Source of the DNA: a virus
Virus record (IMG/VR): IMGVR_UViG_3300034198_010993
Span: 1-27,572 of that record
Length of the DNA: 27,572 nucleotides
Reading direction: 5' to 3' (one strand)
Shown: positions 6,605-26,174 of the stretch, piece after piece
Numbering within the stretch: position 1 is the first letter of the stretch
Layout: every line of letters starts with the position of its first letter
Program-made: the position numbers and the translations under genes
The notes under the pieces: generated by a model
What the model saw: the letters and a program-made list of their open reading frames with translations, nothing else
Databases searched by the model: none
What the model was told of the DNA's origin: nothing

Positions 6605-7015
6605 ATGACAACGCAACAAATACACGACAACCCCGACCTAGCCAAAGCCGTCCACGAGACCGCCACCCAGAAGCTGAACGATCCCGAGTGGGAGCCGTTT
6701 CCCATCGACCTTGTCGGTGGTGACCTTGAACTAGGTCAACGCGCCTTCGAGGTACTTCAGACGCTCGGCTACGCCAAGGAACCCTCGGGAGTTAACTGGC
6801 CTGAGGTGCTTGAGACTCTCGGCTACGCCAAGGAACCCTCGGGAGTTAACTGGCCTGAGGGGATGGGGATGTCTACCGAGCCTCATTACGACACTTACTA
6901 CGACGACCTCATTCACCCCCGAGCCAAGGAGCACCTTATCAAGTACGGCAAAGATTACGTCGAGTGCCTCGAAGCATTCATGAGATTAACCAACCAACCC
7001 ATCAACCGCTTATAA
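6605..7015 (+). CDS. hypothetical acidic protein with tandem repeat
   Basis: A 136-residue acidic protein with two adjacent copies of an 18-residue unit at residues 49-84, EVLxTLGYAKEPSGVNWP, followed by EGMGM. The copies differ only by Gln/Glu at the protein level and are nearly identical in DNA, so the duplication is recent. The N-terminus has a short helix (DNPDLAKAVHETATQKLNDP), and the C-terminus a helix ending MRLTNQPINRL. The unit resembles part of a Phe/Tyr-rich small phage domain, but no family is recognised. Starts at ATG 6605 after the leader ACCTATC. Confidence 0.7.
   Translation: MTTQQIHDNPDLAKAVHETATQKLNDPEWEPFPIDLVGGDLELGQRAFEVLQTLGYAKEPSGVNWPEVLETLGYAKEPSGVNWPEGMGMSTEPHYDTYYDDLIHPRAKEHLIKYGKDYVECLEAFMRLTNQPINRL
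6749..6856 (+). repeat. tandem duplication, 2 x 54 bp
   Basis: Units 6749-6802 and 6803-6856 are nearly identical; from CTCGGCTACG onward (6764 and 6818) they match without difference for over 40 bases. The period is 18 codons, so the frame is kept. Confidence 0.92.
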
Positions 7016-7259: not shown

Positions 7260-7979
7260 ATGAAATATCATCTGACCCTGCGGTCTGGTAACTCGAAGAC
7301 TGGCACGATACCCGTTACTACCTCTTCCGCCGATACCTGCCCCGATGCCTGCCCCTTCAAAGCTAACGGGTGCTACGCGGACGGAGGTCCTCTCGCACTC
7401 CACTGGCGTGCGGTGACCAACGAGACCCGTGGTACGAACTGGCAGTCCTTCATCCGTCAGATCTTCGAGCTACCAGCTCGTCAGCTATGGCGTCACAACC
7501 AAGCTGGAGACTTGCCGGGTCTCAACAACGACATCGATCGCAACAAGTTAGAAGAGCTAGTCATCGCCAACCAAGGCAAGCGTGGGTTCACCTTCACACA
7601 CAAGCCCCCGACTCGTCGGAACTTGGATCTGATTCGATCCGCCAACACGCACGGATTCACCATCAACCTCAGTGCCAACACGCTTGATCACGCCGACAAG
7701 CTGATCAAGACGGGCTTGCCTGTAACCGTCGTCCTTCCGCAGGAAGACGTAGCCAAGCGCAACCAGCTCACCCCAGCCGGACACAAGGTAGTCACCTGCC
7801 CAGCAGCCCGATCCAAGACGATCAGTTGCTCTACGTGCGCCCTGTGCCAGAAAGCAGATCGAAACTTCATCATCGGCTTCCCAGCCCACGGGGCTCGTAA
7901 AAACTCAGTCAGTCAACTTGTGCGTCAGGTATCTCATACCACGCACATACCAACAGCAACCCAACTCGCAACCAAATAA
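7260..7979 (+). CDS. DUF7227-like cysteine-rich protein
   Basis: A 239-residue protein. The N-terminal signature SGNSKTGTIPVTTSS is followed by Cys27, Cys31 and Cys38 in TCPDACPFKANGCYADGGPL. The central part is strand/helix alternation (LDLIRSANTHGFTINLSANT; LPVTVVLPQED), suggesting a TIM-barrel-like or radical-SAM-related core. The C-terminal region has Cys180 and a CxxCxxC at 190-196. The two Cys groups could bind Fe-S or Zn. I recall this signature as a phage DUF (DUF7227) loosely like the phage Gp37/Gp68 group; activity is unknown. It lies directly upstream of the methyltransferase, with no gap, so a linked role in DNA modification is possible but not shown. Confidence 0.7.
   Translation: MKYHLTLRSGNSKTGTIPVTTSSADTCPDACPFKANGCYADGGPLALHWRAVTNETRGTNWQSFIRQIFELPARQLWRHNQAGDLPGLNNDIDRNKLEELVIANQGKRGFTFTHKPPTRRNLDLIRSANTHGFTINLSANTLDHADKLIKTGLPVTVVLPQEDVAKRNQLTPAGHKVVTCPAARSKTISCSTCALCQKADRNFIIGFPAHGARKNSVSQLVRQVSHTTHIPTATQLATK
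7927..7951 (+). promoter_or_regulatory. AGGTATC motif inside gene end, candidate promoter
   Basis: AGGTATCTCATACCACGCAC lies within the last codons of the DUF7227-like gene, 55 bases before the ATGTG double start of the methyltransferase. It keeps AGGTATC, CATAC and the ACC end of the other copies. Being in coding sequence it is weaker evidence than the intergenic copies. Confidence 0.4.
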
Positions 7980-7981
7980 AA

Positions 7982-9388
7982 ATGTGGATACTACCAAAAC
8001 AATTACACACGTTAGCCTCTGCTCTGGATACGGAGGCATTGACTTGGGACTCAGAGCAGCTCTGCCGTCTCTACGAACAATCGCTTACTGTGAACGGGAA
8101 GCCTTCCCGATCTCGATCCTTCTCCGCCGCATTGAAGAAGGACAACTGGATGTCGGCCCTATCCACACGGACCTTAAAGCCTTCCCTTGGGAACTCTTTC
8201 GTGACCGAGTTTCTATCCTCAGCGGCGGATATCCTTGTCAGCCATTTTCAGCCGCCGGTAATCGCAAAGGGAAGGACGACCCCAGACACCTCTGGCCTTG
8301 GATCGCAGATGGCATTAGGGCTATGCGACCTCGCCAGTGTTTCTTTGAAAATGTCGATGGACACATCTCGATGGGACTCTCCACAGTCATCAGCGATCTG
8401 GAAGAGCTTGGTTACCAAGCGACGTGGGGAGTTTTCAGCGCGTCTGAAGTTGGCGCACCTCACCAGAGAAAACGGGTCTTTATCTTGGCCCACCGCAAAT
8501 GCGAGGGACTGGAAGGACTCCGTGAATTCAGTACCTCCCTCGGTTGGTCAGACGAGAGGATACAGCTTGGGAATGGCAGTAGCAGAGAAGAACTGGCCGA
8601 CTGCCTCGACGAGGGATCACAAGGGAGGTTACGAGGGGGGGCGAATCCGGAACGGCAAGGTGTCGATGGACACGCTGGATGTAGCAGTTCAGGCGTACTC
8701 GGAAGGTGGCCTGCTCGCCCAGGCGAACCCCAATTCAGTTGGGAGCCCCCAAGAGTCCTCGACAACAAAGTGGGCGACTCCAAGCGCGTTCGATTGGAAT
8801 CAACCGGAGACCAAGGAGCAGTGGGAGAAGAGAGCAGCGACTCAAGCCGAAAAGGGAGTGAACCTTCATCTGCCCCTCAAATCTCAGGCGATCCAAGTGG
8901 GGAACAACTGGGCGACTCCCAATACTCTAGATCACATGGCTCTACGTTCTCCGGAAGCATTACTTCGGCAAGCAACTACGACCCGCTCAGGGAGAACGGC
9001 TCCGGCGAATTTGAGAGAGCAAGTCGATCCCTCCTCGGTGGAGATCTACAAGCAAGCAAGCTGGCCGACACCGACCTCGATGGAGGCTGGGAAGATCGGC
9101 AATCAACCGAACTTCGGTCAGTTGGGGCTGAGCAATCACCCAGCCATCGTGGGATTGCCGGATCGGGAGAAGGCGGCGAAGTCGGATTCGACGGCGCAAC
9201 AGAAGCAGAAGATCACAGCCAAGCTCTCCCCGAGGTTTGTGGAGACCTTGATGGGGCTTCCAATCGGATGGGTTATGCCGAGCTGTGCCGAACCTATGAC
9301 AACCGCACCCACGAGCTCCGCGCCCTCGGGAACGGAGTGGTATGGCAGCAATGCGCCCACGCCTATCGAACTCTCGTTGGTCAACTAA
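7982..9388 (+). CDS. alternative-frame protein overlapping C5 methyltransferase
   Basis: A 468-residue frame in +1 register to the methyltransferase and covered by it almost completely. It starts at ATG 7982, two bases ahead of the GTG that starts the methyltransferase, and stops at 9388. Residues 1-150 look like a passive shadow (Ser/Leu-rich). From about 155 it has regular features: five modules starting Trp-(Pro/Ala)-Thr at residues 169, 205, 264, 310 and 361, a conserved-looking TPNTLDHMALRSPEALLRQ, and the end LSPRFVETLMGLPIGWV. I recall similar modular sequences from other phage methylase loci. Either an independent overprinted protein or a frameshift extension. Function unknown. Confidence 0.55.
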   Translation: MWILPKQLHTLASALDTEALTWDSEQLCRLYEQSLTVNGKPSRSRSFSAALKKDNWMSALSTRTLKPSLGNSFVTEFLSSAADILVSHFQPPVIAKGRTTPDTSGLGSQMALGLCDLASVSLKMSMDTSRWDSPQSSAIWKSLVTKRRGEFSARLKLAHLTRENGSLSWPTANARDWKDSVNSVPPSVGQTRGYSLGMAVAEKNWPTASTRDHKGGYEGGRIRNGKVSMDTLDVAVQAYSEGGLLAQANPNSVGSPQESSTTKWATPSAFDWNQPETKEQWEKRAATQAEKGVNLHLPLKSQAIQVGNNWATPNTLDHMALRSPEALLRQATTTRSGRTAPANLREQVDPSSVEIYKQASWPTPTSMEAGKIGNQPNFGQLGLSNHPAIVGLPDREKAAKSDSTAQQKQKITAKLSPRFVETLMGLPIGWVMPSCAEPMTTAPTSSAPSGTEWYGSNAPTPIELSLVN

Positions 9389-9399
9389 TCCAAAATTAA
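7984..9399 (+). CDS. C5 cytosine DNA methyltransferase
   Basis: A 471-residue Dcm-type enzyme that transfers a methyl group from S-adenosylmethionine to cytosine C5. Motif I is VSLCSGYGGIDLGL (10-23). Motif IV is GGYPCQPFS with catalytic Cys85. Motif VI is ENV (122-124), motif VIII HQRKRVFILAH (160-170), and motif X-like ELRALGNGVVWQQ (444-456). The target-recognition region between VIII and X is about 270 residues, Ser/Gly-rich and of low complexity, with LAD/LGD-type repeats; it coincides with the patterned part of the +1 frame. GTG 7984 is preferred because it follows the previous stop; a TTG at 7918 would add 22 residues inside the upstream gene. Probably protects phage DNA from restriction. 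Confidence 0.9.
   Translation: MDTTKTITHVSLCSGYGGIDLGLRAALPSLRTIAYCEREAFPISILLRRIEEGQLDVGPIHTDLKAFPWELFRDRVSILSGGYPCQPFSAAGNRKGKDDPRHLWPWIADGIRAMRPRQCFFENVDGHISMGLSTVISDLEELGYQATWGVFSASEVGAPHQRKRVFILAHRKCEGLEGLREFSTSLGWSDERIQLGNGSSREELADCLDEGSQGRLRGGANPERQGVDGHAGCSSSGVLGRWPARPGEPQFSWEPPRVLDNKVGDSKRVRLESTGDQGAVGEESSDSSRKGSEPSSAPQISGDPSGEQLGDSQYSRSHGSTFSGSITSASNYDPLRENGSGEFERASRSLLGGDLQASKLADTDLDGGWEDRQSTELRSVGAEQSPSHRGIAGSGEGGEVGFDGATEAEDHSQALPEVCGDLDGASNRMGYAELCRTYDNRTHELRALGNGVVWQQCAHAYRTLVGQLIQN
8483..9085 (+). repeat. five dual-frame modules in methylase target region
   Basis: A core like TGGCCGAC or TGGGCGAC recurs at 8486 (diverged, TGGCCCAC), 8594, 8771, 8909 and 9062. In the methyltransferase frame it gives LAH, LAD, VGD, LGD and LAD. 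In the +1 frame it gives WPTA, WPTA, WATP, WATP and WPTP. Spacing is irregular (108, 177, 138, 153 bases, all multiples of three), so frame is kept in both. Confidence 0.7.
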
Positions 9400-9647: not shown

Positions 9648-9993
9648 GGCAACGCTCCATGAGGGAGTCCAGCAAGTACGCTGAGGCTTCCTCATGGCCC
9701 GCCTCTTCCTTCACCCCCTTGGCGTGAAGCGTGTTAAAAGTAACGTGAACCAACTCGTGAGCAAGAATCGCGATCTTCGCCGGAGTCGGCTCGAACTTCT
9801 GCATGAAGACGATGTTCCCGCAATTAGAGTAGTAGGTAACCGCATCCATCGTCTCGTACCCTTCCAAGTCTAGCTCTATCTTTTTCTTCTTGCACCAAGC
9901 CGCTGCCTGTTCCGGCGAGCAAGGGCAAAAGAAATACAAAGCATCCTTGTACGGGTCGATCGAAAGTCGAGTTCCTTTAGGTAGATTGCTCAT
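9589..9993 (-). CDS. HExxH metallopeptidase-like protein
   Basis: A 134-residue protein with KIAILAHELVHVTF, HExxH at residues 79-83. A helix GHEEASAYLLDSLMERCLKW at about 99-118 could supply the third zinc ligand, as in ImmA/IrrE-like and related small phage zincins. The N-terminal part has FFCPCSPEQAAAWCKKKK. ATG 9993 is chosen because it overlaps the stop of the upstream HNH gene as ATGA (9990-9993); a longer frame to 10074 would sit inside that gene. Likely cytoplasmic. In phages such proteins may cut a repressor or host regulator, but here the target is unknown. Confidence 0.8.
   Translation of the reverse strand: MSNLPKGTRLSIDPYKDALYFFCPCSPEQAAAWCKKKKIELDLEGYETMDAVTYYSNCGNIVFMQKFEPTPAKIAILAHELVHVTFNTLHAKGVKEEAGHEEASAYLLDSLMERCLKWLIRSEKKASESQVARD
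9591..9611. terminator. hairpin at convergent gene ends
   Basis: AGTCGCGAG and CTTGCGACT (9591-9599 and 9603-9611) can form a nine-pair stem with one wobble and a CAA loop. It lies in the overlap of the converging genes. There is no T-tract on either side, so it may stabilise or slow rather than terminate. Confidence 0.35.
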
Positions 9994-10400
9994 AGGTCTG
10001 GTGCCAAATAGGCACCGATGTCGAGTAGCCCAGCATGGCGTTCCCGGTGACATCGGCAGCAAAGCAGCAAGCACTTTTCAGACTCTAGCAGAGCGGAAGG
10101 CATATCGTTCCTACGTGATGAAATCGTGTAGCTCTTCTCCTCCGGCTTGAGGTGATCAAACTCCAGTGCGGCGATACACTTGTTGTACCCACATACCGCG
10201 CAGCATCCGCCGTGTTCAGCCTTGATTTGAGTAGATATGTTGCGTCTCCGCACTTTGTTCCGAGATACGGTTTTCTCTTTCTGCCCACTGCCTAAGTAGT
10301 AACTGATCGTGCCCATTGAACACGGAATCGCCTTGGAAATGTCCTTATAGGACATACCAGTAGCTCTTAAAGCAATAATATGGTCGCCAAGTACACTCAA
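9990..10400 (-). CDS. HTH-HNH endonuclease-like protein
   Basis: A protein of 136 residues if it starts at TTG 10400. An N-terminal helix-turn-helix (HIIALRATGMSYKDISKAIP, then CSMGTISYYLG) is followed by a zinc-binding HNH nuclease region: CCAVCGYNKC, LEFDHLKPEEKS and LLCCRCHRERHAG. The two Cys pairs and the His residues match HNH proteins with a structural zinc. The frame stays open to ATG 10514 and ATG 10598, but those extra residues are encoded by AT-rich DNA with a palindromic TATAAT element and match nothing I know of the family, in which the HTH lies at the very N-terminus. Probably a free-standing homing-type nuclease. Coupled by ATGA to the metallopeptidase gene. Confidence 0.72.
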   Translation of the reverse strand: MSVLGDHIIALRATGMSYKDISKAIPCSMGTISYYLGSGQKEKTVSRNKVRRRNISTQIKAEHGGCCAVCGYNKCIAALEFDHLKPEEKSYTISSRRNDMPSALLESEKCLLLCCRCHRERHAGLLDIGAYLAPDL

Positions 10401-10675
10401 AATATCAGTGATATATACCTCATTTGTTTTACGTATACTAGGTATATTATACCACCTAGACAAAATACTTATTAAAAAGACCTTTTGGCGTTGACCAAAC
10501 CGATAACGCCCCATAACCTTTCCGGCAATCCTTGAATACAGCTTCGTTATGACCCACCTGTTCGCACTTATCCCCCACAAGGTATATGGGCGCGTCATGA
10601 CGATCTACCCGCTGAGGTAGCCTGGGATTGCCAGAACAAACAAAAAACCCCACCCGTCGGTTCCTTAAATTGTAT
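10401..10675. other. divergent spacer, probably non-coding
   Basis: A spacer between the leftward HNH operon and the rightward gene at 10676, with A+T-rich parts (10370-10480). It is open in the HNH frame, so it could instead be its N-terminus. It contains the palindromic motif at 10440-10456. The remaining part shows no clear gene; an 80-residue leftward frame there has no family features. Confidence 0.4.
10440..10456 (-). promoter_or_regulatory. palindromic TATAAT element ahead of HNH operon
   Basis: GGTATATTATACC (10441-10453) is a perfect inverted repeat of six bases about one centre. The leftward strand reads GGTATAATATACC with a consensus TATAAT. It resembles the AGGTATCTTATAC motif. 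It lies about 40 bases before the proposed TTG start. No good -35 box at normal spacing, so it could be a phage promoter variant or an operator. Confidence 0.45.
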
Positions 10676-13601: not shown

Positions 13602-13826
13602 ATGAGTGCTTATTGGAACCCTGAGAATCGTCACAAGTATGAGAAGATTGACTACACCCGCAAACCGGGGCAACCGAAGCCTTGGGTAAAGCGTACTGGT
13701 TTAATCATCTCATCAGTCTTGCTCGCCCCCGTGTTCATCGCTTTCTTGATCGCCATGTGGTATATCATGATCCCGTTGTGCGTCTTTTCACTAGGGTACG
13801 TGGCGTATAAGTCGTTCTCATCCTAA
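13602..13826 (+). CDS. membrane protein with one or two spans (74 aa)
   Basis: A 74-residue protein. A polar, basic N-terminus (MSAYWNPENRHKYEKIDYTR onward) is followed by a long hydrophobic region, residues 32-70 (GLIISSVLLAPVFIAFLIAM; WYIMIPLCVFSLGYVAY). This could form two close helices as in a small holin. No lysin is visible nearby in this window. The gene begins divergently from the leftward gene and its last 9 bases overlap the end of the giant gene. A small inner-membrane protein is the safe call. Confidence 0.65.
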   Translation: MSAYWNPENRHKYEKIDYTRKPGQPKPWVKRTGLIISSVLLAPVFIAFLIAMWYIMIPLCVFSLGYVAYKSFSS

Positions 13827-16800
13827 CTTCAGTTTGCCGCCCAATATCTCGGCCTCGATCTGCTTTACCGCGTGGTTACGGGCAGCGTTACCGATCTTAG
13901 AGTCGAGATAATCTTGAGCTAGGTTCTTGTTTTCCCTTGCGTACTGGGAAAGCTGGTCAATCATCTCCGGCGTAAGCATCTCCTTCATGGCTTCACCCCG
14001 GAGTTGCACAAAACGGCGGTTAACCTCTGGGTATTTACCCATCTTGCTCTTGACGATCGCCCCTTGAGCGTCCAGATACCGGAACTCAGTGGCCTTGCTA
14101 GGGTTTGGAAGAATCAATCCTGCTTTAATTATTGGAGAGATGATCGGATGAGGAGCCATGTTGCTGGCATTCACAAACCTCCAAGTGGTGGCAGAGTACC
14201 AAGGCTGTTTGATCGGCTCTCCCAGCGTGTTGAGTGCAGGCGTATTGTAACCAATCGATGCTGGAACCATTGAGTAGAGCCAGCCCTCGGTCGTGCCTGT
14301 ATCAAGTCGAGCTACCTGCCCGTCTTTATCCATGCCAAAAGTATTCCTAGCCCAACGCACTAGACCTGGGTTTGTAAACCCAGCCACAGTCCCTCCCGCC
14401 AGCCTCTTCAGACTGCTAGTCTGCTGAGTAGGATTTGTCGCCCGCAACGCCTCGAAAAGGTTAGTAACACCCGAAAGCATATTCTTGTCTAGTACCGTGG
14501 AAGCCGAGGAAAGAGCTGCTGCCCACGCCACCTCAGAAGTCGTCTGCTCATCCTTCTTATATCGGATAGTATCAAATCCCGACCCCAGACCCCCCAATAA
14601 AATCCCGAGAGCAGGCCAATCCACATAACGATAGAAGTGGCCTCCGATACATACGGAGTTAGGCTCCCATTTTTGCGTGTCTTTTAACTGCTGCTTGTCC
14701 ATCGAATTACGAGGACCCGCCCCGTGGATAGCAAAAAAAGGAACCTTACCTTCCTGCTCTTCCAAGAGACCCTTATAGGCTAGATACGCCAGAGACATAA
14801 ATGCAGTAGTCCCGAGAATCGACTTTGCAAACTGAGCGGACTGCTCCGGAGAGCCTTCCTCGAACTTCCTAGGAGCGTACTTACTGTTCTCAGAAAAAGA
14901 TCGCTGAGAGGGCGACATATTCTTCGCCCTGAGTGCCCCCCACACCGTGTAGTCCAAAGACTGGTTCATGATGTTGGAAAGCGTGTTCATAAACGAGAGC
15001 ACAAACTTCGTGACCTTGAGCTCAGAATTCATCTGAGAAGCAAAACCCGCCACAAACCTACCCAAGATTCCATGAGCCCCCTCGTTGTAGGTAGCGTGCT
15101 CCGCGAAGTTAGACCCCTGCTCGGTCACCCCTTTATAAACCTCCTCACGTCGATTCTGAAGCAACTCAGAGACTCGGCGTTCGATCCACTTCTTCTGGTT
15201 TCCGCTGTCTGCCCCATACATCCCCTCAGCAGCTTCCTTTTCAGCCGTCGCCCGCACCCCTTCTGTAACTTTCTGATCCGGGTAGAAGAGATCGCGAATG
15301 ATCTCGTTTACCTGTTCGGTGGATCTGCCCTGCTTGTGTTCCAAAAAGAACCTTGTAGCCATTCGCTGCTTGGCTTCGTCGGCGGACACCATGTTCATAG
15401 CGTCAAGTGCCAGCATGGCGCGACCTACGTACTTGAGCTTGCTTGCATAAGAAGCGACCAAACCTGCAACACCTTTGTAGTCGGCTGGATCTAGGTTCTC
15501 CAAGTGAGAGGCTCCCTCCATCTGGTTGACTCGGTACTGGGTCGTCCCTTCCTGTAAAGCCCTACCAATTTCCTGCCTCGACCGCTTTCCTAGAAACGAG
15601 CCGTAAATAGTAGAAAGACCATCGGCAATGTACCTAGAGTCTCCAGTCTGCCACAAGTAGCCGAGAGACTCCATGAAAGTCTCAGTGACGACACTGATAT
15701 GCGAGCCGCCCAAGTTGACCATCTGGGTAGGAGGGCCGCTTAGCACTCCCGCTTGCCATGCTGCCGTGGTGATATCGAGTATCTTAGAAATACCCTCTAC
15801 GCTCTTCCACTTACCCAAGACTTCCTGAGTACGCTTTGTTGCAATCTTGTTGAGGAGATCCCCCGTCCTCTGGTTGCGGTACTGACCCTCTGGGAGAGCT
15901 TGTACTTCAGCCGCTTCCTTCTCGATCTGAGCACTAAATCTCTCATCCCAAGTTGGTAGTTTGTAGCTATCTGAAATCGCATTATAAAACCTCTCTTCTG
16001 TAAACGCACCTAGGTTCACGAGCTTCAACATCTTCTGGATGTCACTCTCCTTGATCTGTTTGATCCCCGCCCTAGCGTCTCGATCCGCCTTGTTTTTCAA
16101 CAGGGCATCTAGTTGAGTCTTTGCCGACTTGTGGGCCTCAAACTCGTAAGTCTGACGTAAGGACTCCGCCACCCGGACAGCTTGTTCTGGGCTTAAATCA
16201 CTATTAGTAATGATCTCACCGATCAGAGCCTCCCGACTCGCGTTCCTATCACTTAGTGTCTTTTTAACCACATCACGGAAAACAACTTCTCGGCGAAGTA
16301 AGTCCTGAGCTTTCTTCATGGCTCCGCCATCAAACTTTGCTCCTTCCAGAGCTGCTCGCTGGGCAGGACTAATCTTTGCATCGGGGTTCACTAGGATTGC
16401 CTCCCTAGCGGAATTAAACGCTCTCTCCGATAGCTCGGAAATATCCAACCCTTCTGCGAGTGCCTTAACTGCTGCCTCCCGATTAAACTCCGGCTTTTCC
16501 TCGATCCCCTTGAACACCTCGCGCATACGCGCAGAGATCTCTTGGTGGATGTTCTTTTGAAGGATTTCCAGTGCGGGTCCGTTTACCTTGGACTCTTTAC
16601 CTACTGATCCTGCAATCTTCTTGGCAAGGGAAGCTGCCGCCTTCTCCGCATACTGAATGCCCAGAGGCGTAGAGTTCTTAGAAGGGCTCGTGTTGTCTGG
16701 GTCGCGAACAGCGTCAAAGAAGTCGAACACGCTCTGAGCAAATCCATCTTGTACTTCCTTGCTGGAGGCAAAGATCTTACGGATCAACGTCCTTGCCCTA

Positions 16801-19800
16801 CCCACAGTCTCCTCAGCACCTGTTTCAATGCTAGCCTGCACCGCTGTTTTCAGCTCCTGTGCAGTCTTGTCGCCCGACAACTTGGCAGCTTGTTGCTTGA
16901 AAATAGGGGATAGGTACTCATCGATGATGTACCTGCCATTCATGTTCCTTGAGATCATGCGGAATACTGCAAGCATCTTACCGCTTGCGGTAGCCTTCTC
17001 CGAGAGCTCACGGGTCAACTGGTTTCCCGTAGTTGTGTACTCGGCGAGTTGCACCTCATCAGCAATCGTCTTCACTCCTGCTGACTTAATCTGCTTCTCC
17101 AGTGCCCATTTAAGAACTTTTGCTTGCTGGGCAACAACGTACTTGGCGGTAGCTATCTCCGGCTCCGTATTAAGTCCGTTAGTTGCTCCTGAGAGTAACA
17201 TACGAGCGATATCTTTATTTGAGTCACCAGCCTGTACTCGGGTTGTGATCCAATCTTCTGCTACATCGATCCACTGCTTAAAGCTCTCGGGGATATAGGT
17301 CTTTCCGGCCATCATTGCCCGGACTTCCGGATCAGCCGTCAGTAGATCCTTCTCCAAAGCCCGAGTGGGCTTAGGTTTCTGAGGGGTTATGCTGATTGCT
17401 CGGAGCTTGCCGCCCTGAGCCTGTTGAAAAGGCTCCCTACCAACAAAGTAGGTTACAGGATCAAATACTCCAATTTCTCCATTAGATAATTTCTTAGCAT
17501 TTTCTTCATGCACATCCTCAAGCCACAAGTTGAGCTCCTCGTTATAAAAGCCTACGCGCTTCGGCTCTGGAAGAGCGGGCGGCTTGAGTCCCGCGTCAAT
17601 AGCAAGTTGATGGGCTTTTGACATACCCTTACCCGTCTCGAAGACCTCCTTAAAACCCCTAGCTTTAAGGCTGTTAGTAATTTCCAGTTCTGTTGGCTCC
17701 GAACCTACCGCGTCTGGTTGGGATATGACGGGCATAAGCTCGCCCTCAAAAGTGGTGAAACCCTTGAATTTAGGAGCTAGTTCCGGAAACAAATACCTTT
17801 GTGCAGCGATGCGCTCCAAGTACGCCGTAAGAGACCCATCGTGGAAATTAAGAGTATTTCGCTTCCACCAAGTCTGAGTCTCCTCATCAAAGTAAACTTG
17901 ATGCTCGCTTTCTCCTCGTTTCCCTTGCTCTTCCCAACGCCTGTTAAATTCGTCCTCTGATATGAATAGGCCGTTTTCCTTGGCCCATTTCTCTAGGGCG
18001 TCCGCTTCAGCAGCGTGGGCTGCCTTTCTGAAGGCTTCACTCGTTTTACTGTTCGGTCGTAATCCGCTAAGGCTTCTTTGGCTGACCTCCAGGGCTGCTT
18101 GGAGATTGCTTCCATCGCTCGTTCTGACGAGATCCTGTGCGATTCGCTCAGGTAGCTCCTTGGTGGTAGCTCCGTATTGCCGCTTGATGTAGGAGTCTCG
18201 GATATCGGAAGGGTTGATTGAGATTTTTTCATTTTGAGAGTTATTTGGGTTGACTTTTTGGTATAATACACCACTACCACTCTCCGTGTCAAGCGTAGGC
18301 TCCCCATACTCTCTCTCACTCATGTGATCGAACATCTTGTTCAAGTACTGATCTAGGGCGGAGTCCTTCTTGACGTTGAATCCGAGCCACTTGATCAGCT
18401 CACCCTTGAGGTACTTCCAGGCACTTACGAGCTTCCCAGTAATCGAGTCACGGATTTCAAGATTGTTGAGCGCATCACGAACCTCTCGGTTCTTGAGAGC
18501 GGCTGCGAGTAGCTCGTGGGGATTGGAGAAAGCGTAGTGGAATGCGTCGGACTCCTGTTTATTGAGGACAGTCGGATCAGCGGCACGAGTCCAAAGCTCT
18601 TTAGAAGTAAGCCCTTTCTTAACCGCCTCAGCTTGAATCGTCTTGAAGAGACGTTGTATCTCAGGAGGAAGATTTCTATCAGCAGTGAGTGAGTGTAATA
18701 CTTCCTCAAGGATAGTCTCAGCGGCACTGTCTTTCGTAAGAGCAATTCGTCCAGTTGCTGGGTCATACTCTCCCAATACTCCAGCCTCCAACCTATCATG
18801 CACATCGACCGGAATGCGTAGGAGTTTACCAGACCCTGCGAATTTCTTCAGTAGGAACTGGGCAACCACATTTACCATCGAGTCGTGCTCGGGGTTATTA
18901 GCGAGATCGTAGAGTACGTCCTCGGCGTGGGTCACTCGGATCGGCTCTCCACGAGTCTCTGCAACCCTGTCGCCCTGTGACCCTGTATCAATAGCGTTTA
19001 ACTGCTCATTATCAATGTCTCTAAGCTCCCTAAAAAGTTGATCTCTCAAAGGATCTGCAAAACTATTAAATTTAGAAAGTCGCTCCAACGCCCCCTCTAA
19101 CTTGGACTCAAGGGCTGACCCCCTGACAGAATCTCTCAACCGCTCTATTGCTTCTGCCCCGGCTCTATACGGATCGATTGTTCCGTTAGCTTTATTTCGC
19201 TCTATTAATGTGAGATCTGGCGGCATCTCATTCGCTGACAGGGCGTGGAGGACGAATGTTTCCATACCGAATGGAAGTTGATCTTCCTCCCAAGGAAGAT
19301 CGCCTGTTTGGTGCATAATATCTTTTATCTTCTCCCATTCCGGAACTTGTTTTTGTTCGTAGTACTCCTCTAATTTGTTGATCTGTTTTATTATTTCACG
19401 GGTTTTTTTGCTCCTTTGAGCCCGTCCCCCTGTATCAATGGATCTGAGCGGACTCACCTCAAATTTTCCGTTGCCGACAACATTGTCCATCAACTGATCT
19501 GGAGTGAAATCCATGTCAGCTATCCTGTCAGCTCGTTCACTAACCCGACTCAAGTAGCTTGACTGGCCTACTACAGACTCTTCCAACCCTTCCGTCTGGC
19601 TCCATATTTTCTCAGCGGCAGAAAGTCGTTCCTTAGTTGCCTCAAGTCTATCTTTCAACAATTCGAGTAGTTCCTCAGGAGAGGTTGACCTCCTCCCTTC
19701 GTTGTCTTGTTCATCAGACTTAAAAAGGAGCTCCTCAAACTCACTTTCCGAAAGTATCTCGCTCTCCTTCATCGAGTAAGCGATCTCAAGGACTTTCTCA

Positions 19801-22800
19801 GACTCGATCTCCCCTTCGACTTGCTCAAGGGCTACCAACTCCCCCTCGCTTCTTTCGATAGCAGCGTAGGCTTTTTCAATTCCTTGAGCTTCGTAGGCAG
19901 AGGTATCTACTGACTTAGCTTGAGGATTAGGATTTGACAGTTCGTCCTCGACTTTTTGTGCGGCATCCGAAATCTGCTTATACTCCTCATCGCTAATACC
20001 TAGTCGGTCAGCGATCTCTGATTTACCGAGCATTCTGGCTAGAGCTAGACGGCGCACCAAGGGTACGTCTGGACGCCCCATGTGAGCAATGGCTCTACTG
20101 ACTAAAGCAGCAGTAGAGTTCTGCTGCGCCCCCGAAATCTTGTTGGGATCAGTGCCTACAAAGGTTCCCCCGATAGTTGCATCGCCATCACCTACAGGAG
20201 CATCTAGCGAGGTGCTGGAATTTACAGCGGCGGAAGTCTGTGACGCAAATTCTCCTTCCTCGGTGCGCTTGTTAATCCAGGCTACGGCCTGCTCCACACT
20301 TCCCGTAGGCATACCCTGCTCCTCGTACTTAGTAAGCGTATTGCGGCTGCGACCAGTTGCCCGACTAATGGCTGAGATGTTACGGGTTAAAACTGGAGTA
20401 TCAGCATCCAACTGATCCTTGACGGGTTCCGGCAAGGTATTGAGATCCACGTAGGTAACGATTCCATTCTCAAGAGTCACCTCTCTCAATTTCATCGTGC
20501 CAGTCTCTTGTACTCCAAGATCCCTCCACTGGGCTCCCTTGAGCGATGCTACCCCTTCTCCGTCAGCCAAGCCCGCTTGGTCGAAGGTCTTAGCCATCGG
20601 GTTGTTGAGATCTGTCCTGGAGTAACGCTCTGGGTCTAAGCGGTAATCTTTTTTCATATCCCCGATCTCCTTGGAGATAGCGTCCCTCTCCTTGCTGTCG
20701 GTAGATTTCGATAGTTGATCCCTTAGCGACTCAAACCTCTCGAAGTATTCTTGGGACTCCTGATCTTTGTACCAGTAGTTAGGGACTTGAGATTCAGCTA
20801 CAGGTTCTTCTGGAAGGGTCTCGGCGACTGGCTCCTCCACCGAAGTCTCTACAACAGGTTCTTCCACGACAGGAGGCTCCACAACCGTCTCTGGCCTCGT
20901 GATCTGAGCCTTTGCTAAATTGTTAAGGTGCTTCTGAACATCAGCCACCGTTATTTTGAGAGGCTGGCCTTTCTTGTTGATTCGTACAGGTACGTCCTGA
21001 AGATTAATTTTTTCACTCTGCGCTAATTCAACTGCTTTCGGTGAAGCGTTGATCTCGACGGGGGGCTCAAAGTCTTCAATATCATCCTGTGACTCTGTGA
21101 CTGGTTCCTCTGTCACCTCTTCGCCTTCAGATAGCCATTTCTCTTCCAGCCACTTCTCCAAGTCAAAAGGCGCAATTCCATCTGGGCGGGGTGCGCCGTT
21201 CTCTCCGGTAATCCTAAGAGCTGGAGCGACTGGCTTCTGACCAGTACGTGCCTCAATCTCACGACTGATCTTTTCTTTGATAGAGTTGTTGGCGGCGGAG
21301 GCTTTCCTGACGCTCATCTCGGCGTGCAGCTCTTGAAGCAGAGGTACATCCTCTGCTCGTATCGCAGCATCGACTAACTGGGAGACTGATGGGATTGGCT
21401 TCCCCGTGCGCTTGCTAACCTTAGGTTCATTCGCGTACAGATCGGCAAACCTGCGATTCTCTACGTACTGCTCCGGAGTGCGGCCTTGAGCCTGTCTCTC
21501 GGCGGGGGTTACAGGAGCTTGACTCTTCTTGGCCTCTTCCAGCTCGCGCAGGATTCCGTCTGTATGGAAAGTGAGGTTCTGGGGCTTCTGAGCCAAGGCG
21601 GCTGCGTGGAGGGCTACCCGCCCTTCCGGTGTCGCTGGATCGATCTCAGGTTCGACCGCGTCGGTTGGTAAGGCAGCAGGGGTCTCGGTAGCACCCGATA
21701 CATCCGGTAGGGCCGGAGCGGGTTCTACCGAAGATGCTAAAGGGCTTTTTCCATCGGTGCCCCCTACCTTATTCAATTCGTCAATTACACCTTGCGGGTC
21801 TTTAGCTATGCGCTCTTTCAGCAGCATGAGGGACCCAGTGTCTAACTTGTCGGTATCTTCTCGCGGTATATCGTCAGCCGTTAAAGTTCCTTTTTTCTTC
21901 AGGATATGCTGCAACCGAATTGCGATTAGCTCTTGCGTATCCTGATCTATCCCCCTGCTATCGAATAAGTATTTAGTAGATGGGCCGACATTATCCGGAT
22001 TTGTAGTCGTGGTTTCTTCAACCCTATCCGCCGCCATTTTCTTTGCGGCCTCGGCACGTGCAACCCTTTCGGCTTCTTCTTTAGCCAGTCGAGCGGCCTC
22101 TGCTTTTCGAGTGGCCTCTGCCGCAGCTTCTGCTGTTGCTGGGGAATTAGATGCCAGCAAGTCGTCAACTTGACTCTCGATGTTTGAGTCACCTGGTGGG
22201 ATGTAGGTCTCAGTGGCCTGCTCGACTGCCCCAGAGGCAGCTCCTCCCTTGGTTTTGTAAGGGTTGAGGAACACCCCGCCTGGGCCAACCCAAGGTTTGA
22301 CCGCCAGACCAGCAACACCCTTGAGAGCTGCTGTGCCAGGATCTTCTCCTTCGGCAATGCCCATGCCTGTCATAACGCTAACGCCAGCGGCTCCGCCCAG
22401 TGCGTGCCCAAATTGTTCAGCGGCCTCTTGTTGAGCCTTTCCGGCTGCAATGGCTTCTGGAGTCAAGGTCGTGGTACCGGGAATCACGGCCTTGGTTGCC
22501 CTCTCTACCTCTTCACGGGCTTCCTTGCTGCCGATCTGCTTGGCAATGGTAGCGATCCCTTTGCGTCCGGCCTGAGTTCCTAGAGCCTTGACTGATCCAG
22601 CAAGGGCAGAAGCACTTGGCTTACCCATGCCGACCAGAGATCCGGCAAAAGTAGAGACTGGATTAGCCTTATAATCGGCCTGAGCCGACTTGGTTCCCAT
22701 GAATGACTCTGGAGCAATTTCATCGGAAGCCATATCTTGGAGCTTACGAGCCCCCATGCCGAAACCGATACCTCCCGCCAGAGCCCCTATAGGAACGGCA

Positions 22801-23063
22801 ACGGGGGCGAGGGGACCAGTTAGAGCACCAGCGGCTGCGCCAGTACCCATTGCTCCCAAGAGACCCGCTACTCCAGGGATGACACTACGTCCTGCCTCAC
22901 GGCCAAAAGATCCAAGCTGCGAGGGCGTTTCTTCCGGCGTCTCAACCTCCTTTTCTTCTGGCTCTTGAGTGGCGGAGGAGGGGGCAGCGTATTTAGTCCA
23001 CGGCCCCTCTTTAGTTTTGTCGCTTGACGAGGCGTATCTTTCCCAAGGTTTTTGGTCGGACAT
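13818..23063 (-). CDS. giant polyvalent virion/ejection protein (3081 aa)
   Basis: A 3081-residue protein. It starts with two PWxxYA motifs (PWERYA, PWTKYA), then a Gly/Ala-rich hydrophobic stretch at about 52-112 and an Ala/Glu/Lys coiled coil near 315-345. Pro/Val/Glu repeats lie at about 722-760. An HTH resembling phage Nu1-type domains (ATGRSRNTLTKYEEQGMPTG) is near 902-935. A degenerate zincin (EEVLH at about 1452) follows, then a kinase-like domain about 1715-1880 with LEDVHEENAK and GVFDPV. The last ~900 residues (for example VLSGPPTQMVNLGG) resemble C-termini of internal virion proteins. Such multi-domain proteins are injected with phage DNA and act in the host. It follows two virion-type genes with a 5-base gap. 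Domain calls are by eye. Confidence 0.85.
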   Translation of the reverse strand: MSDQKPWERYASSSDKTKEGPWTKYAAPSSATQEPEEKEVETPEETPSQLGSFGREAGRSVIPGVAGLLGAMGTGAAAGALTGPLAPVAVPIGALAGGIGFGMGARKLQDMASDEIAPESFMGTKSAQADYKANPVSTFAGSLVGMGKPSASALAGSVKALGTQAGRKGIATIAKQIGSKEAREEVERATKAVIPGTTTLTPEAIAAGKAQQEAAEQFGHALGGAAGVSVMTGMGIAEGEDPGTAALKGVAGLAVKPWVGPGGVFLNPYKTKGGAASGAVEQATETYIPPGDSNIESQVDDLLASNSPATAEAAAEATRKAEAARLAKEEAERVARAEAAKKMAADRVEETTTTNPDNVGPSTKYLFDSRGIDQDTQELIAIRLQHILKKKGTLTADDIPREDTDKLDTGSLMLLKERIAKDPQGVIDELNKVGGTDGKSPLASSVEPAPALPDVSGATETPAALPTDAVEPEIDPATPEGRVALHAAALAQKPQNLTFHTDGILRELEEAKKSQAPVTPAERQAQGRTPEQYVENRRFADLYANEPKVSKRTGKPIPSVSQLVDAAIRAEDVPLLQELHAEMSVRKASAANNSIKEKISREIEARTGQKPVAPALRITGENGAPRPDGIAPFDLEKWLEEKWLSEGEEVTEEPVTESQDDIEDFEPPVEINASPKAVELAQSEKINLQDVPVRINKKGQPLKITVADVQKHLNNLAKAQITRPETVVEPPVVEEPVVETSVEEPVAETLPEEPVAESQVPNYWYKDQESQEYFERFESLRDQLSKSTDSKERDAISKEIGDMKKDYRLDPERYSRTDLNNPMAKTFDQAGLADGEGVASLKGAQWRDLGVQETGTMKLREVTLENGIVTYVDLNTLPEPVKDQLDADTPVLTRNISAISRATGRSRNTLTKYEEQGMPTGSVEQAVAWINKRTEEGEFASQTSAAVNSSTSLDAPVGDGDATIGGTFVGTDPNKISGAQQNSTAALVSRAIAHMGRPDVPLVRRLALARMLGKSEIADRLGISDEEYKQISDAAQKVEDELSNPNPQAKSVDTSAYEAQGIEKAYAAIERSEGELVALEQVEGEIESEKVLEIAYSMKESEILSESEFEELLFKSDEQDNEGRRSTSPEELLELLKDRLEATKERLSAAEKIWSQTEGLEESVVGQSSYLSRVSERADRIADMDFTPDQLMDNVVGNGKFEVSPLRSIDTGGRAQRSKKTREIIKQINKLEEYYEQKQVPEWEKIKDIMHQTGDLPWEEDQLPFGMETFVLHALSANEMPPDLTLIERNKANGTIDPYRAGAEAIERLRDSVRGSALESKLEGALERLSKFNSFADPLRDQLFRELRDIDNEQLNAIDTGSQGDRVAETRGEPIRVTHAEDVLYDLANNPEHDSMVNVVAQFLLKKFAGSGKLLRIPVDVHDRLEAGVLGEYDPATGRIALTKDSAAETILEEVLHSLTADRNLPPEIQRLFKTIQAEAVKKGLTSKELWTRAADPTVLNKQESDAFHYAFSNPHELLAAALKNREVRDALNNLEIRDSITGKLVSAWKYLKGELIKWLGFNVKKDSALDQYLNKMFDHMSEREYGEPTLDTESGSGVLYQKVNPNNSQNEKISINPSDIRDSYIKRQYGATTKELPERIAQDLVRTSDGSNLQAALEVSQRSLSGLRPNSKTSEAFRKAAHAAEADALEKWAKENGLFISEDEFNRRWEEQGKRGESEHQVYFDEETQTWWKRNTLNFHDGSLTAYLERIAAQRYLFPELAPKFKGFTTFEGELMPVISQPDAVGSEPTELEITNSLKARGFKEVFETGKGMSKAHQLAIDAGLKPPALPEPKRVGFYNEELNLWLEDVHEENAKKLSNGEIGVFDPVTYFVGREPFQQAQGGKLRAISITPQKPKPTRALEKDLLTADPEVRAMMAGKTYIPESFKQWIDVAEDWITTRVQAGDSNKDIARMLLSGATNGLNTEPEIATAKYVVAQQAKVLKWALEKQIKSAGVKTIADEVQLAEYTTTGNQLTRELSEKATASGKMLAVFRMISRNMNGRYIIDEYLSPIFKQQAAKLSGDKTAQELKTAVQASIETGAEETVGRARTLIRKIFASSKEVQDGFAQSVFDFFDAVRDPDNTSPSKNSTPLGIQYAEKAAASLAKKIAGSVGKESKVNGPALEILQKNIHQEISARMREVFKGIEEKPEFNREAAVKALAEGLDISELSERAFNSAREAILVNPDAKISPAQRAALEGAKFDGGAMKKAQDLLRREVVFRDVVKKTLSDRNASREALIGEIITNSDLSPEQAVRVAESLRQTYEFEAHKSAKTQLDALLKNKADRDARAGIKQIKESDIQKMLKLVNLGAFTEERFYNAISDSYKLPTWDERFSAQIEKEAAEVQALPEGQYRNQRTGDLLNKIATKRTQEVLGKWKSVEGISKILDITTAAWQAGVLSGPPTQMVNLGGSHISVVTETFMESLGYLWQTGDSRYIADGLSTIYGSFLGKRSRQEIGRALQEGTTQYRVNQMEGASHLENLDPADYKGVAGLVASYASKLKYVGRAMLALDAMNMVSADEAKQRMATRFFLEHKQGRSTEQVNEIIRDLFYPDQKVTEGVRATAEKEAAEGMYGADSGNQKKWIERRVSELLQNRREEVYKGVTEQGSNFAEHATYNEGAHGILGRFVAGFASQMNSELKVTKFVLSFMNTLSNIMNQSLDYTVWGALRAKNMSPSQRSFSENSKYAPRKFEEGSPEQSAQFAKSILGTTAFMSLAYLAYKGLLEEQEGKVPFFAIHGAGPRNSMDKQQLKDTQKWEPNSVCIGGHFYRYVDWPALGILLGGLGSGFDTIRYKKDEQTTSEVAWAAALSSASTVLDKNMLSGVTNLFEALRATNPTQQTSSLKRLAGGTVAGFTNPGLVRWARNTFGMDKDGQVARLDTGTTEGWLYSMVPASIGYNTPALNTLGEPIKQPWYSATTWRFVNASNMAPHPIISPIIKAGLILPNPSKATEFRYLDAQGAIVKSKMGKYPEVNRRFVQLRGEAMKEMLTPEMIDQLSQYARENKNLAQDYLDSKIGNAARNHAVKQIEAEILGGKLKLG
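18955..18991 (+). repeat. 8-bp-period CCCTG repeat inside giant gene
   Basis: TCTCTGCA, ACCCTGTC, GCCCTGTG, ACCCTGTA. Read leftward it encodes DTGSQGDRVAET. Shares 19 identical bases with 13434-13452. Confidence 0.7.
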
Positions 23064-23068
23064 ATAAG

Positions 23069-25339
23069 TTAAATTTTTACCCAGTTCTTTTGATCGGCAG
23101 GATCGCCACCTTTGAATTTGTGCCCGTCCACTACCTCCCCGATTTTAGGTGCTTTGACCTCTTCTGCGGTCTTAGCTTCTACAGGGGCGGTGGCGGCGGT
23201 GGGGTTAAGAATCCCTTTCTCCTCTTCATTGTACCGATCTAGCTCCGCCTCGATGGCAGCCATATCCGCATCTCGGGTTTTGCCTCCGCGCATAGTGTCG
23301 GCTTTGTATTTGTCGAGTCTGTCATTCGCTTGTCTCCTCAGTCGGTCGATACGATCCTTGGCCTGAGCGGTCTTCTTATCGGCTTTTTCTTCCGCTTGGT
23401 TCTCAGCAGCCTTCTCAGCAATCTTCAGCTTGTCGGCGCGAGTTTCTGTATTGGAGACATTGTTGGCGGTTCCGGCCACGTCAGCAGCCTGCTTTCTTGC
23501 ACGCTCGTTTTGGCGAAGGTCGGTAACCGATCCGCCCATATTCTGCCCGACCGCATAGTTGACCAGTTCTGGCATCGCGGTTCCTCGGAGAGCCTGCATT
23601 GCCATATCGTTCGTAAGCAGTGAACTACCCAGCGCATTGATACCCGTAGACTTAGGTAGGAACCTTGCAGCAAGCTCGGGATTGGCTTTAAGCTGCTCAT
23701 CAGTAACTCCATTGGCCTTTGCCATACCCGCTGCGGCCTTACCAATGTTTGCATCAATCTGAGCACCCCTAAGAGGATTGCCATTGGTACGTGGTGCGCT
23801 TGCCGCTTCCATAGCGTTCTTAGCGGTATACTGATCCCAACGGGCTTTCTCTGCCTGAGCTGTGGGAGAGTTTCGCATTGCTTCGGCCTGCTTAGAAACT
23901 TCAGCTTGGAAATCTTTCGTGGTTGGTAGACCAAAAGTATTATCGCTCTTAGACGCAAGAACTTCACGGGCCTTGGCATCGGCATCTCTACCAGCGTTGT
24001 ATTGAGCAACGCTCTCTGGGGTAGCCGTTACGTTTGCAGGTCCAGTGGTGAAGTTCTCGTCTGGCTCGCTAGGAGCCGAGCGATCCACAACTACTGGTAC
24101 TCGATTGAATCCAGGTTTAGCGGCGGCGGCGTCCAGCTTCGTCAAGAGATCTCCGAATGAGGGTTCCTTAGTGCTATTGTACTCGGCGATCCGCTTCTCG
24201 ATCACACTGGCAGGCGTATTCCGATCAATGATGCCACGGCGATTGAGCTCCGTAAGAGCTTGCGTTAGGTCTGGCGTTGCCGTGATGCGAGCATTGATCT
24301 CCTTCTGGATGTTAGAATTTATGCTCCCCTCCATAGGGCCCGATTCCTTTGCGATACGATTAGCGTTATTCTCCAAGAACTGCTTCGCTGGAACTCCCTC
24401 GATAAGCTCTCCCTTTGGAGTACCCCTTGGGATCACACCGCTAAGATCTTGGTAGTTCAGGACGTTACTTGCTACAGTTTGAGGGTTGAGAACAGATTGC
24501 GCTGGCTGTACCGATCCACCTCTAGGTTTGCCCATAGTTACGGTGCCCCCACCCGCAGGGTGATAAGTAGTCGTTCCATCAAGGTTCCTTTCGCTCCGAG
24601 TAATTCCTCCCGAAGACTCGTAGAGACCCTGCACCCTTCCAGATCCATCGCTCATTGAACCAGCCTGAGGAATGATTGCGTTACCTTTGCTATCAGACGG
24701 GAGAGTACGATCCACCCCGTCATTTCCTCTAGCAAGAACTCCAGCCGCACGAGCCGCCTTATCCTCGTCGTGCTGACGGAAAACATTCTGGACATTTGTT
24801 ATGCCAGCCATGCCGCGATCATATTCGTTCTGTGCCGCTCTAGAATCGACGCCGTGGTTCTGCCCATAGGCGAGCCTCCACTTGAGCATATCCATATTCC
24901 GCTGCATCATGTCGGGAGCGTAGATCTTAGGTTGCGCTGCTTCGGGGGCAGAAGCTACCTCTGGAGTGGTCGCTTCAGCGGCTGCTGTTGACGGGGCTAC
25001 TGGGGCTGAGGGAGTTGCCCAAGTAGGCTGCGGGAATTGAGGGCTCCCAGGAATAGCCGCCATTTCACGATCTTTTCTAGCCCAAGGGTTATCACCCATC
25101 ACAAAGTTCTTAATGCCCTTACCAACCGTAACTATAGGAGCCTCAGACTTAGCTTGAGGGGAGTCATTCGGACCTACTGGCTTTATTCCTGCTGCCCGTA
25201 GCTTATCCGCATAAGTCTGAGGCGTCCCGTAATCCGTAACGCTGGGCGAAAGCAAGCCGTCGCCCATAGGCTTACCTTTGGCGGCTTCAGCCTCTTGCTT
25301 TTTCTTCTCTTCTTCGGACATGGGTGTGGTAGCTGCCAT
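23069..25339 (-). CDS. alanine-rich virion-associated protein (756 aa)
   Basis: A 756-residue protein of low complexity: Ala, Pro, Lys, Asn and Gly rich, with few strands. The N-terminus (MSEEEKKKQEAEAAKGKPMG) is charged. A middle part has EAAQPKIYAPDMMQRNMDML, and a long Lys/Glu coiled coil lies at about 627-714 (KIAEKAAENQAEEKADKKTA). It contains NPWARKDREM, slightly like the PWxxY repeats of the giant protein. Position directly upstream of the giant gene in the same leftward operon suggests an internal virion or ejection protein. The start may be ATG 25339 or 25321 (MSEEEKK); the first is used. It overlaps no neighbour; two bases separate it from the preceding stop. Confidence 0.75.
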   Translation of the reverse strand: MAATTPMSEEEKKKQEAEAAKGKPMGDGLLSPSVTDYGTPQTYADKLRAAGIKPVGPNDSPQAKSEAPIVTVGKGIKNFVMGDNPWARKDREMAAIPGSPQFPQPTWATPSAPVAPSTAAAEATTPEVASAPEAAQPKIYAPDMMQRNMDMLKWRLAYGQNHGVDSRAAQNEYDRGMAGITNVQNVFRQHDEDKAARAAGVLARGNDGVDRTLPSDSKGNAIIPQAGSMSDGSGRVQGLYESSGGITRSERNLDGTTTYHPAGGGTVTMGKPRGGSVQPAQSVLNPQTVASNVLNYQDLSGVIPRGTPKGELIEGVPAKQFLENNANRIAKESGPMEGSINSNIQKEINARITATPDLTQALTELNRRGIIDRNTPASVIEKRIAEYNSTKEPSFGDLLTKLDAAAAKPGFNRVPVVVDRSAPSEPDENFTTGPANVTATPESVAQYNAGRDADAKAREVLASKSDNTFGLPTTKDFQAEVSKQAEAMRNSPTAQAEKARWDQYTAKNAMEAASAPRTNGNPLRGAQIDANIGKAAAGMAKANGVTDEQLKANPELAARFLPKSTGINALGSSLLTNDMAMQALRGTAMPELVNYAVGQNMGGSVTDLRQNERARKQAADVAGTANNVSNTETRADKLKIAEKAAENQAEEKADKKTAQAKDRIDRLRRQANDRLDKYKADTMRGGKTRDADMAAIEAELDRYNEEEKGILNPTAATAPVEAKTAEEVKAPKIGEVVDGHKFKGGDPADQKNWVKI

Positions 25340-25340
25340 A

Positions 25341-26174
25341 TTATTTAAGATTCACGCCGCTTTGACCGGGTAGCATGGAGGTACGTCGCTTGTTCTGACC
25401 CTGACCTAGGGTTCCGTGCGCTGCGTGGTTGGCGGAGTCTCCTACGCGGCCAACTGCGTTCGAGATAGAACCGAAGAGTCCGCCGAGATGACTATTCTCT
25501 CGGTATCCCCGTCCAGAATTCGGAACCTGCTGCATGGGAGCAGCAGCGATTTCACCAGGGCGATGATGTCGGGGGTAGTTTACGATTCCGTGTGCAACTG
25601 GCATCCCATTGGCGATTCCATTCTGAGGGGAGATCGTTGAGTGCGCCGTCGCGGTCGGAGGAGTAAGATTTAAGATGCGGTTGGACGGGGCGATTGTCTG
25701 CGAAGCAGATGGAGGTTCCGTAAGCCCGTTGACAACCGGAGAACTGATTTGAAGACTGCTTGGGGGAGTAGAGGGATTGCTAACCGGAGCGGCGTAAGGC
25801 TGCATCCCAGCATCGGGGAGAGGGAGGTTGGACTGAGTGGGCTGGAGATTTATTACCCTCCCCTGACCTTCAGATTCATAGCCCGCTACTGGGCCGACCC
25901 CGCTGTTCATTGGCAAAAAGGGGTTTCTGTACTGGAAATCAGATGATGGGGGGAGCATTGAGCTGGACGCAACACTACCGGGGACATAAGCCTGCTGAGA
26001 CTGAATGCTGGTTCCGGTATAAGGGTTGGTGCGAGCAGCCTCCCAAGAGTGAAGTGGAGCCTCACCCGAACTACTTGGAGCGTTGATCGGAGTAGCCTGC
26101 CCAGTCTGTGCCCGACCAATTCGATTGGTGTTTCTCTTATCTGCTTCTGATTCTTGGGTTCCGGATGTGTCCAT
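25341..26174 (-). CDS. Ser/Pro/Gln-rich structural protein (277 aa)
   Basis: A 277-residue protein, strongly enriched in Ser, Pro, Gly, Asn and Gln from end to end (MDTSGTQESEADKRNTNRIG; PSTPPSSLQISSPVVNGLTE), with a Gly/His/Arg-rich C-terminus (GLFGSISNAVGRVGDSANHA). No catalytic motif or membrane helix; likely disordered. In podovirus-like gene orders such proteins lie between tail and internal virion genes. It follows the 333-residue protein by 12 bases and is followed directly by the 756-residue gene. Function inferred only from place. Confidence 0.68.
   Translation of the reverse strand: MDTSGTQESEADKRNTNRIGRAQTGQATPINAPSSSGEAPLHSWEAARTNPYTGTSIQSQQAYVPGSVASSSMLPPSSDFQYRNPFLPMNSGVGPVAGYESEGQGRVINLQPTQSNLPLPDAGMQPYAAPVSNPSTPPSSLQISSPVVNGLTEPPSASQTIAPSNRILNLTPPTATAHSTISPQNGIANGMPVAHGIVNYPRHHRPGEIAAAPMQQVPNSGRGYRENSHLGGLFGSISNAVGRVGDSANHAAHGTLGQGQNKRRTSMLPGQSGVNLK

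Follow-up and report, generated by a model that had tools for sequence, protein, structure and literature searches.

A probable two-subunit C5-cytosine DNA methyltransferase encoded by two almost fully overlapping viral genes

The small chain of the methylase M.EcoHK31I is encoded inside the gene for its large chain, in another reading frame. In this two-polypeptide enzyme (YGGCCR), the large chain contains motifs I-VIII, motif X and the predicted recognition domain, and the small chain contains motif IX only (PMC3404938). M.AquI (CYCGRG) is also a two-polypeptide enzyme, and its second chain consists of the distal variable region together with motifs IX and X (PMC3404938). The C5-methyltransferases of Bacillus phages (SPR, SPbeta and H2 type) carry tandem target-recognition domains between motifs VIII and IX, and have several targets (PMC8936443).

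The locus analyzed here lies in a window of 27,572 nucleotides, which is the whole stretch of DNA considered (IMG/VR virus record IMGVR_UViG_3300034198_010993, positions 1 to 27,572); the loci compared with it are referred to by L numbers. It contains two reading frames, “alpha” and “beta”, which resemble the chains of M.EcoHK31I in that motifs I-VIII and X are found in alpha and motif IX in beta, and in that beta (7982-9388) lies in another frame over alpha (7984-9399). M.EcoHK31I is the nearest known case. The two differ in the location of the target-recognition region, which is predicted for the large chain of M.EcoHK31I but is found in beta in the window, where the middle of alpha is weakly constrained, and in the extent of beta, which has the full length of alpha, an overlapping start and five modules. 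A further difference is that distant backbones have cassette-like modules in common, 2-9 of them in a beta, which are probable target-recognition domains. Because the recognition region is in beta, the locus is not filed as a member of the M.EcoHK31I type; compared with that enzyme by description, it is a variant of it.

M.AquI is likewise split in nature after motif VIII, and its second chain also holds the distal variable region and motif IX (PMC3404938), but it has motifs IX and X together in this chain, whereas motif X of the window is in alpha. An AquI-like layout, in most cases with overlap, is found at L110, L118, L129, L130, L132, L150, L152, L153, L176, L177 and L183. The Bacillus phage enzymes have tandem modules at the same place as the window, for whose modules a recognition role is predicted, but they are single chains, whereas in the window a second, overprinted subunit carries the array, which may confer multiple specificities. 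Single-chain phage methylases (A1SD1, Papez, Trax and L225-L236) have a catalytic domain, modules and IX and X blocks like those of the window, but all in one reading frame.

Two reading frames under selection

The original prediction described two overlapping open reading frames of 471 and 468 codons, and both are present. In the ORF list of the window, alpha extends on the plus strand from a GTG at 7984 to 9399 (471 codons), and beta, in the +1 frame, from an ATG at 7982 to 9388 on the same strand (468 codons), with nearly all of its DNA in common with alpha and its end 11 nt away, as had been noted. Alpha, delimited by its ORF, PF00145, phrog_363 and alignment A2, comprises the catalytic domain of a C5-cytosine methyltransferase (motifs I-VIII), a low-complexity linker and motif X. 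Beta, delimited by its ORF, conservation in 77 loci, phrog_1008 and selection tests, comprises an N domain followed by five W-[PA]-T modules that are probable target-recognition domains, and motif IX.

The start codons overlap as ATGTG at 7982-7986 (+), with the ATG of beta at 7982 and the GTG of alpha at 7984, and the start contexts of relatives have the same character: alpha and beta starts overlap in 70 of 71 relatives, the form being ATGTG in 46, ATG-N3-ATGG in 21 and the related ATGGACACATGG in 3, with another form in 1. The N-termini of the relatives are conserved, beta beginning with MWILP or MTWILP and alpha with (V/M)DTT, and the two stops are separated by a median distance of 23 nt. 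No clear Shine-Dalgarno sequence precedes ATGTG in the window. The annotated phage C75C1 (L096) has full-length alpha and beta, yet its start context is ATGATTATATTACC instead of ATGTGGATACTACC.

The genes that surround the locus were also inspected. A 239-aa gene directly upstream (7260-7979, +) has a match to phrog_2554, a family of unknown function, over the C-terminal half of the latter (E 2.5e-52); the gene is conserved in L002 and was not found in L003. A 136-aa ORF at 6605-7015 (+) contains a tandem in-frame duplication in which LGYAKEPSGVNWPE occurs twice, and its orthologue lies upstream of the methylase in L002 and L003. Just downstream, a 202-aa ORF at 9990-10598 (-) has HNH endonuclease matches (phrog_2255 and phrog_3106, E about 1e-20) as well as weaker HTH matches, and is possibly a mobile endonuclease. 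Four large ORFs (3081, 756, 277 and 333 aa) at 13818-27188 (-) have no PHROGs match at E 1e-3.

Relatives were collected with beta as the query and from annotated phages, which gave 99 loci, 77 of them non-identical; one of the sequences, IMGVR_UViG_3300032232_000840 (L001), is 100% identical to the window over beta, and the search of genome contigs gave only two relatives. Retrieval by beta requires neither an open alpha middle nor a stop-free beta, but it favours conservation of beta, a bias of which a survey based on the DNA pattern of motifs IX and X, described below, is free. Both frames are open in all 99 loci (77 non-identical), and beta is always the alpha frame +1; the loci compared are related, and the counts are not those of independent events. 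In synonymous-codon shuffles in which one protein and its codons are preserved, the expected numbers of stops per locus are 2.5 for beta in the N part (~500 nt) and 6.7 for alpha in the middle, while the number observed in 69 loci is 0 in both regions. In the window alone, the middle is significant (0 of 200 shuffles open), but the N part of beta is not (P = 0.125). The significance of the open N part comes from the family and not from the window by itself.

The divergence at four-fold sites between the window and L002 or L003 provides a measure of the constraint that each frame imposes on the other. It is 0.19-0.25 at the alpha sites of the N part that lie under beta, compared with 0.52-0.71 in neighbour genes, and has a normal value of 0.51-0.54 at the beta sites of the middle. 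These divergences indicate that the N part of alpha is constrained, that beta is constrained throughout, and that the middle of alpha is close to a free linker which is mainly required to avoid stops. At conserved alpha sites, the diversity of third bases amounts to 0.34 where beta has its full length and to 0.59 in single-chain relatives, two groups with slightly different GC3 (0.56 and 0.63); in loci with a short beta, the values are 0.64 ahead of the opening of beta and 0.48 within beta.

That the +1 frame gives a real overprinted product, as originally proposed, is almost certain, given its openness in all relatives and the purifying selection on it that the synonymous sites reveal; no relative was found in which the +1 frame is broken while the DNA is otherwise conserved. 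The description of this frame as random before 8490 did not survive the comparison, since the frame is open there in all relatives, begins with a conserved MWILP and keeps synonymous change in alpha low. A frame that is open by chance or codon bias, or a methylase with sequencing frameshifts, would fit the 12.5% of shuffles in which the N part of beta is open when the window is taken alone, but it is next to inconceivable given the absence of stops in 69 loci, the suppressed synonymous change and the recurrence of the layout in phages, plasmids and MAGs that were assembled independently. Both chance openness and an assembly error were rejected on these grounds.

Distribution of the conserved motifs between the chains

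PF00145 matches alpha over residues 8-185 only (E 5.5e-30). Motifs I-VIII, located with PF00145 and alignment A2, occupy 8005-8490 (+) and end with motif VIII, APHQRKRVFILA; PCQPFS is encoded at 8233-8250, with the catalytic cysteine codon at 8236-8238, so that alpha has the motifs and the PCQ cysteine that characterize a C5-cytosine methyltransferase up to motif VIII. The alignment of phrog_363 with alpha extends over residues 2-464, but covers the N part and the very end and skips the middle. This middle, which had been noted as rich in Ser and Gly, indeed has a composition that suits a nearly free linker, as S, G, E, D, R, Q and N make up 61% of it over the family compared with 37% in the N domain. 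It contains a block of the RPGExQ/RPNxQ type (WPARPGEPQFSWEPPRV, 8707-8757, +), and 70 of 71 alphas possess this linker block, WPARPGEPQ..WEPPR.

The remaining parts of the enzyme were located by comparison with single-chain relatives, which include Mycobacterium phages A1SD1 (gp80) and Papez (gp46), Gordonia phage Trax (gp78), contigs L225-L236 and others. In these proteins motifs I-VIII, a variable segment, the block L(S/N)xxFxEWMMGxPxGW and the block LRxxGNGVVPQQA follow each other in one frame, and in the contig forms the variable segment usually contains 1-4 L/W-P-T-P modules. A first hint that the two frames of the window are parts of one protein was that phrog_1008 (“DNA methyltransferase”) matches both beta residues 74-232 (E 2e-21) and, separately, the last ~29 residues of alpha. 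Pfam scans of the short IX+X tails gave no match, split or composite, and profile-profile comparison was therefore used. With hhalign, the beta tail aligns with the first block of the single-chain relatives (E 4.5e-9), the alpha tail with the second (E 1.2e-11), and the joined beta and alpha tails with both (E 3e-20). By position, the two blocks are motif IX, in the beta frame at 9224-9271 (+; LSPRFVETLMGLPIGW; alignments A5 and A7), and motif X, in the alpha frame at 9301-9387 (+; NRTHELRALGNGVVWQQ...RTL). Alpha lacks both motif IX and the target-recognition region, which are in beta as the same blocks that the single-chain relatives possess; motifs IX and X come together only when beta, with IX, is combined with alpha, with X, and in a 471-aa alpha/beta composite the PF00145 match reaches residue 453.

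The natural single-chain relative L122 was folded with AlphaFold in place of a frame-joined alpha-beta chain. Its model is confident over motifs I-VIII, IX and X, while the modules are not confidently folded, and residues 1-383 superimpose on M.HhaI with Z 22 and rmsd 3.5 over 231 aligned residues. The region between motifs VIII and IX in the single-chain relatives corresponds to the beta modules. Alpha and beta are most probably the two halves of one C5-cytosine methyltransferase; the earlier reading of the methylase recognized the overprinting, but missed the complementarity of the parts, with IX in beta and X in alpha, although its observation of recognizable motifs in both frames near the end was sound.

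A +1 protein that is real but independent, such as a regulator or an antirestriction protein overlapping a complete methylase, would account for a beta N domain without known relatives. Both of these options had been raised, but neither is supported, because alpha is incomplete without the motif IX and target-recognition region encoded in beta, blocks that the single-chain relatives contain; an independent factor is accordingly very improbable. Programmed frameshifting is also very improbable as a source of the arrangement. It would yield a single chain by reading the alpha frame to motif VIII, the +1 frame for the modules and motif IX, and the alpha frame again for motif X, and the order of these elements in the DNA is indeed collinear with the single-chain relatives, but two opposite shifts would be needed in one pass, and there would be no reason for beta to be open and constrained over its first 150 codons or to possess a conserved start of its own that overlaps that of alpha in 70 of 71 relatives. 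The suggestion that the +1 frame might be a frameshifted product is for these reasons not supported. It is further contradicted by loci in which motif X is in the beta frame: at L130 and L152, which have a beta of the window type, alpha ends soon after the WPARPGE block at its own stop codon. Such an early stop is what is expected if the long tail of alpha serves only to reach motif X.

Modules and N domain of beta

The N domain of beta (residues 1-168; 7982-8485, +) is overprinted on alpha motifs I-VIII, and is defined by invariant or near-invariant residues in alignment A4 and by the reduced synonymous change in alpha; no homologue of it is detectable outside the family. It is followed by five modules, all on the plus strand. 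Module 1 (WPTANARDWKD...AEKN, 8486-8593) has a 94% identical counterpart in L004, L006, L007 and L008, despite the fact that the beta N domains of these loci are only 38-41% identical to that of the window. Module 2 (WPTASTRDHKGGY..., 8594-8770) is of a type also found in Klebsiella, Cronobacter and Salmonella phages, and module 3 (WATPSAFDWNQPETKEQW..., 8771-8908) is the same in L002 and L003 and diverged in L004, L025 and L028. Module 4 (WATPNTLDHMALRSPEALLRQATTTR..., 8909-9061) is 65% identical to part of a methylase from a Paenibacillus polymyxa plasmid, in which this part is also in the +1 frame, and 51% identical to a stretch in phage C75C1. Module 5 (WPTPTSMEAGKIGNQPNFGQ..., 9062-9211) was delimited in a survey of modules in beta proteins.

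The W-P-T modules that had been discerned in the +1 frame are real. The survey found 343 W-x-T modules in 74 beta proteins, mostly 3-6 in each (range 0-9) with a median of 38 residues, which form 131 clusters at 70% identity, and near-identical modules occur in backbones that are ~40% identical. Such cassette-like swapping, located where the target-recognition region lies, is the behaviour expected of tandem recognition domains, and from this position and mode of exchange the beta modules are probably target-recognition domains, a predicted function that agrees with “target choice”, which was among the earlier guesses for the +1 frame. That each module confers one specificity is slightly favoured.

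The AlphaFold model of beta, from a 63-row alignment with one row from an annotated phage record left out, is poor and uninformative: it has a mean pLDDT of 56 and a pTM of 0.28, and Foldseek found no match for it in the PDB. That the modules are unfolded in the models of both beta and single-chain L122 could also be explained if the methylase is split but its modules jointly build a single composite region, for recognition or as a scaffold, that has only one target. Such a region is possible, if rather unlikely, since there are 2-9 modules per protein, which fall into so many clusters, since near-identical modules are found in such dissimilar backbones, and since the modules resemble the tandem domains of the multispecific Bacillus phage methylases (PMC8936443).

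The locus can thus be read, with high probability, as a two-subunit C5-cytosine DNA methyltransferase produced from two almost fully overlapping genes. Ribosomes would start in both frames at the one overlapping site, ATGTG. Alpha would contribute motifs I-VIII, as the domain for catalysis and AdoMet binding, and, at its C-terminus, the helix of motif X, with a linker between them whose main requirement would be to stay open, and beta would supply motif IX and, between it and the N domain, a tandem W-[PA]-T-P array placed exactly at the target-recognition region of the single-chain relatives. The two chains would assemble into one enzyme in which the beta modules are exchangeable target-recognition domains, so that one or several sequences would be methylated and host restriction escaped. 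Translation of both frames, assembly of the heterodimer and methylation activity are all very likely on the sequence evidence, and a role in anti-restriction is rather likely.

Occurrence of the split layout and its implications

In order to estimate how widespread the layout is, an unselected survey of viral contigs was made using a DNA pattern for motif IX followed by motif X in any frame relation, and it yielded at least 80 loci. Among the 80 matches listed, motif X is shifted by two bases relative to the frame of motif IX in 63, in frame in 17 and shifted by one base in none. The 17 in-frame loci among the matches listed comprise 6 single-chain forms and 11 in which the catalytic part is in a separate, usually overlapping ORF and motifs IX and X are together in the second. 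The full-length-beta class also appears in this unselected survey (for example L114, L135, L172 and L182), and in most of the others beta is shorter and begins within alpha, as in M.EcoHK31I. With a single-chain query, 42 of the 52 classifiable relatives are split across frames, and the motif patterns left 28 more relatives unclassified. Hundreds of viral sequences appear to share the two-frame layout, and a split enzyme of the kind predicted here is unexpectedly common in phages. No description of the layout as widespread in phages was found in the largely open-access literature that was searched.

Several annotated genomes provide individual examples. Klebsiella phage MAG26fr (L097), Salmonella phage SW3 (L098) and Cronobacter phage JC01 (L099) have the alpha/beta layout of the window with a distinct alpha tail (ADWLFCRD...RPVEPGTFPL...GNA), and in each the locus carries a single-gene annotation. 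In the methylase of the P. polymyxa plasmid (L305; NZ_CP040830.1, 1514-3004), an LGRVxDGLS block occurs twice in the alpha frame and, correspondingly, the motif IX block (LNPxWVECLMGFPLxWT) occurs twice in the +1 frame, the second time after stop codons. The annotated records examined, such as those of Salmonella phage SW3, Mycobacterium phage Rhynn and the P. polymyxa plasmid, list one frame only, and it is the frame without motif IX and the recognition region.

It is fairly likely that in phages this C5-methyltransferase lineage consists as a rule of two overlapping genes, one for a catalytic subunit and the other for an overprinted recognition subunit with 2-9 exchangeable modules, to which the full-length-beta class would add the overprinted N domain of roughly 165 residues and co-initiation from ATGTG or ATG-N3-ATG. 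The subunits would then be made together, and specificity could change by cassette swaps that leave neither frame interrupted. Should the split reading be true, many viral genes that are called complete methylases are half-enzymes as annotated, so that cloning the annotated half alone would fail, and prediction of specificity from the annotated protein would use the wrong frame. The reading is testable because cultured phages share the layout. If it is true, a curiosity of the 1990s would become a common phage strategy, and the family would offer a large collection of naturally occurring genes with long overprinting, in which selection can be measured, as well as a natural library of recognition modules for two-part methylases.
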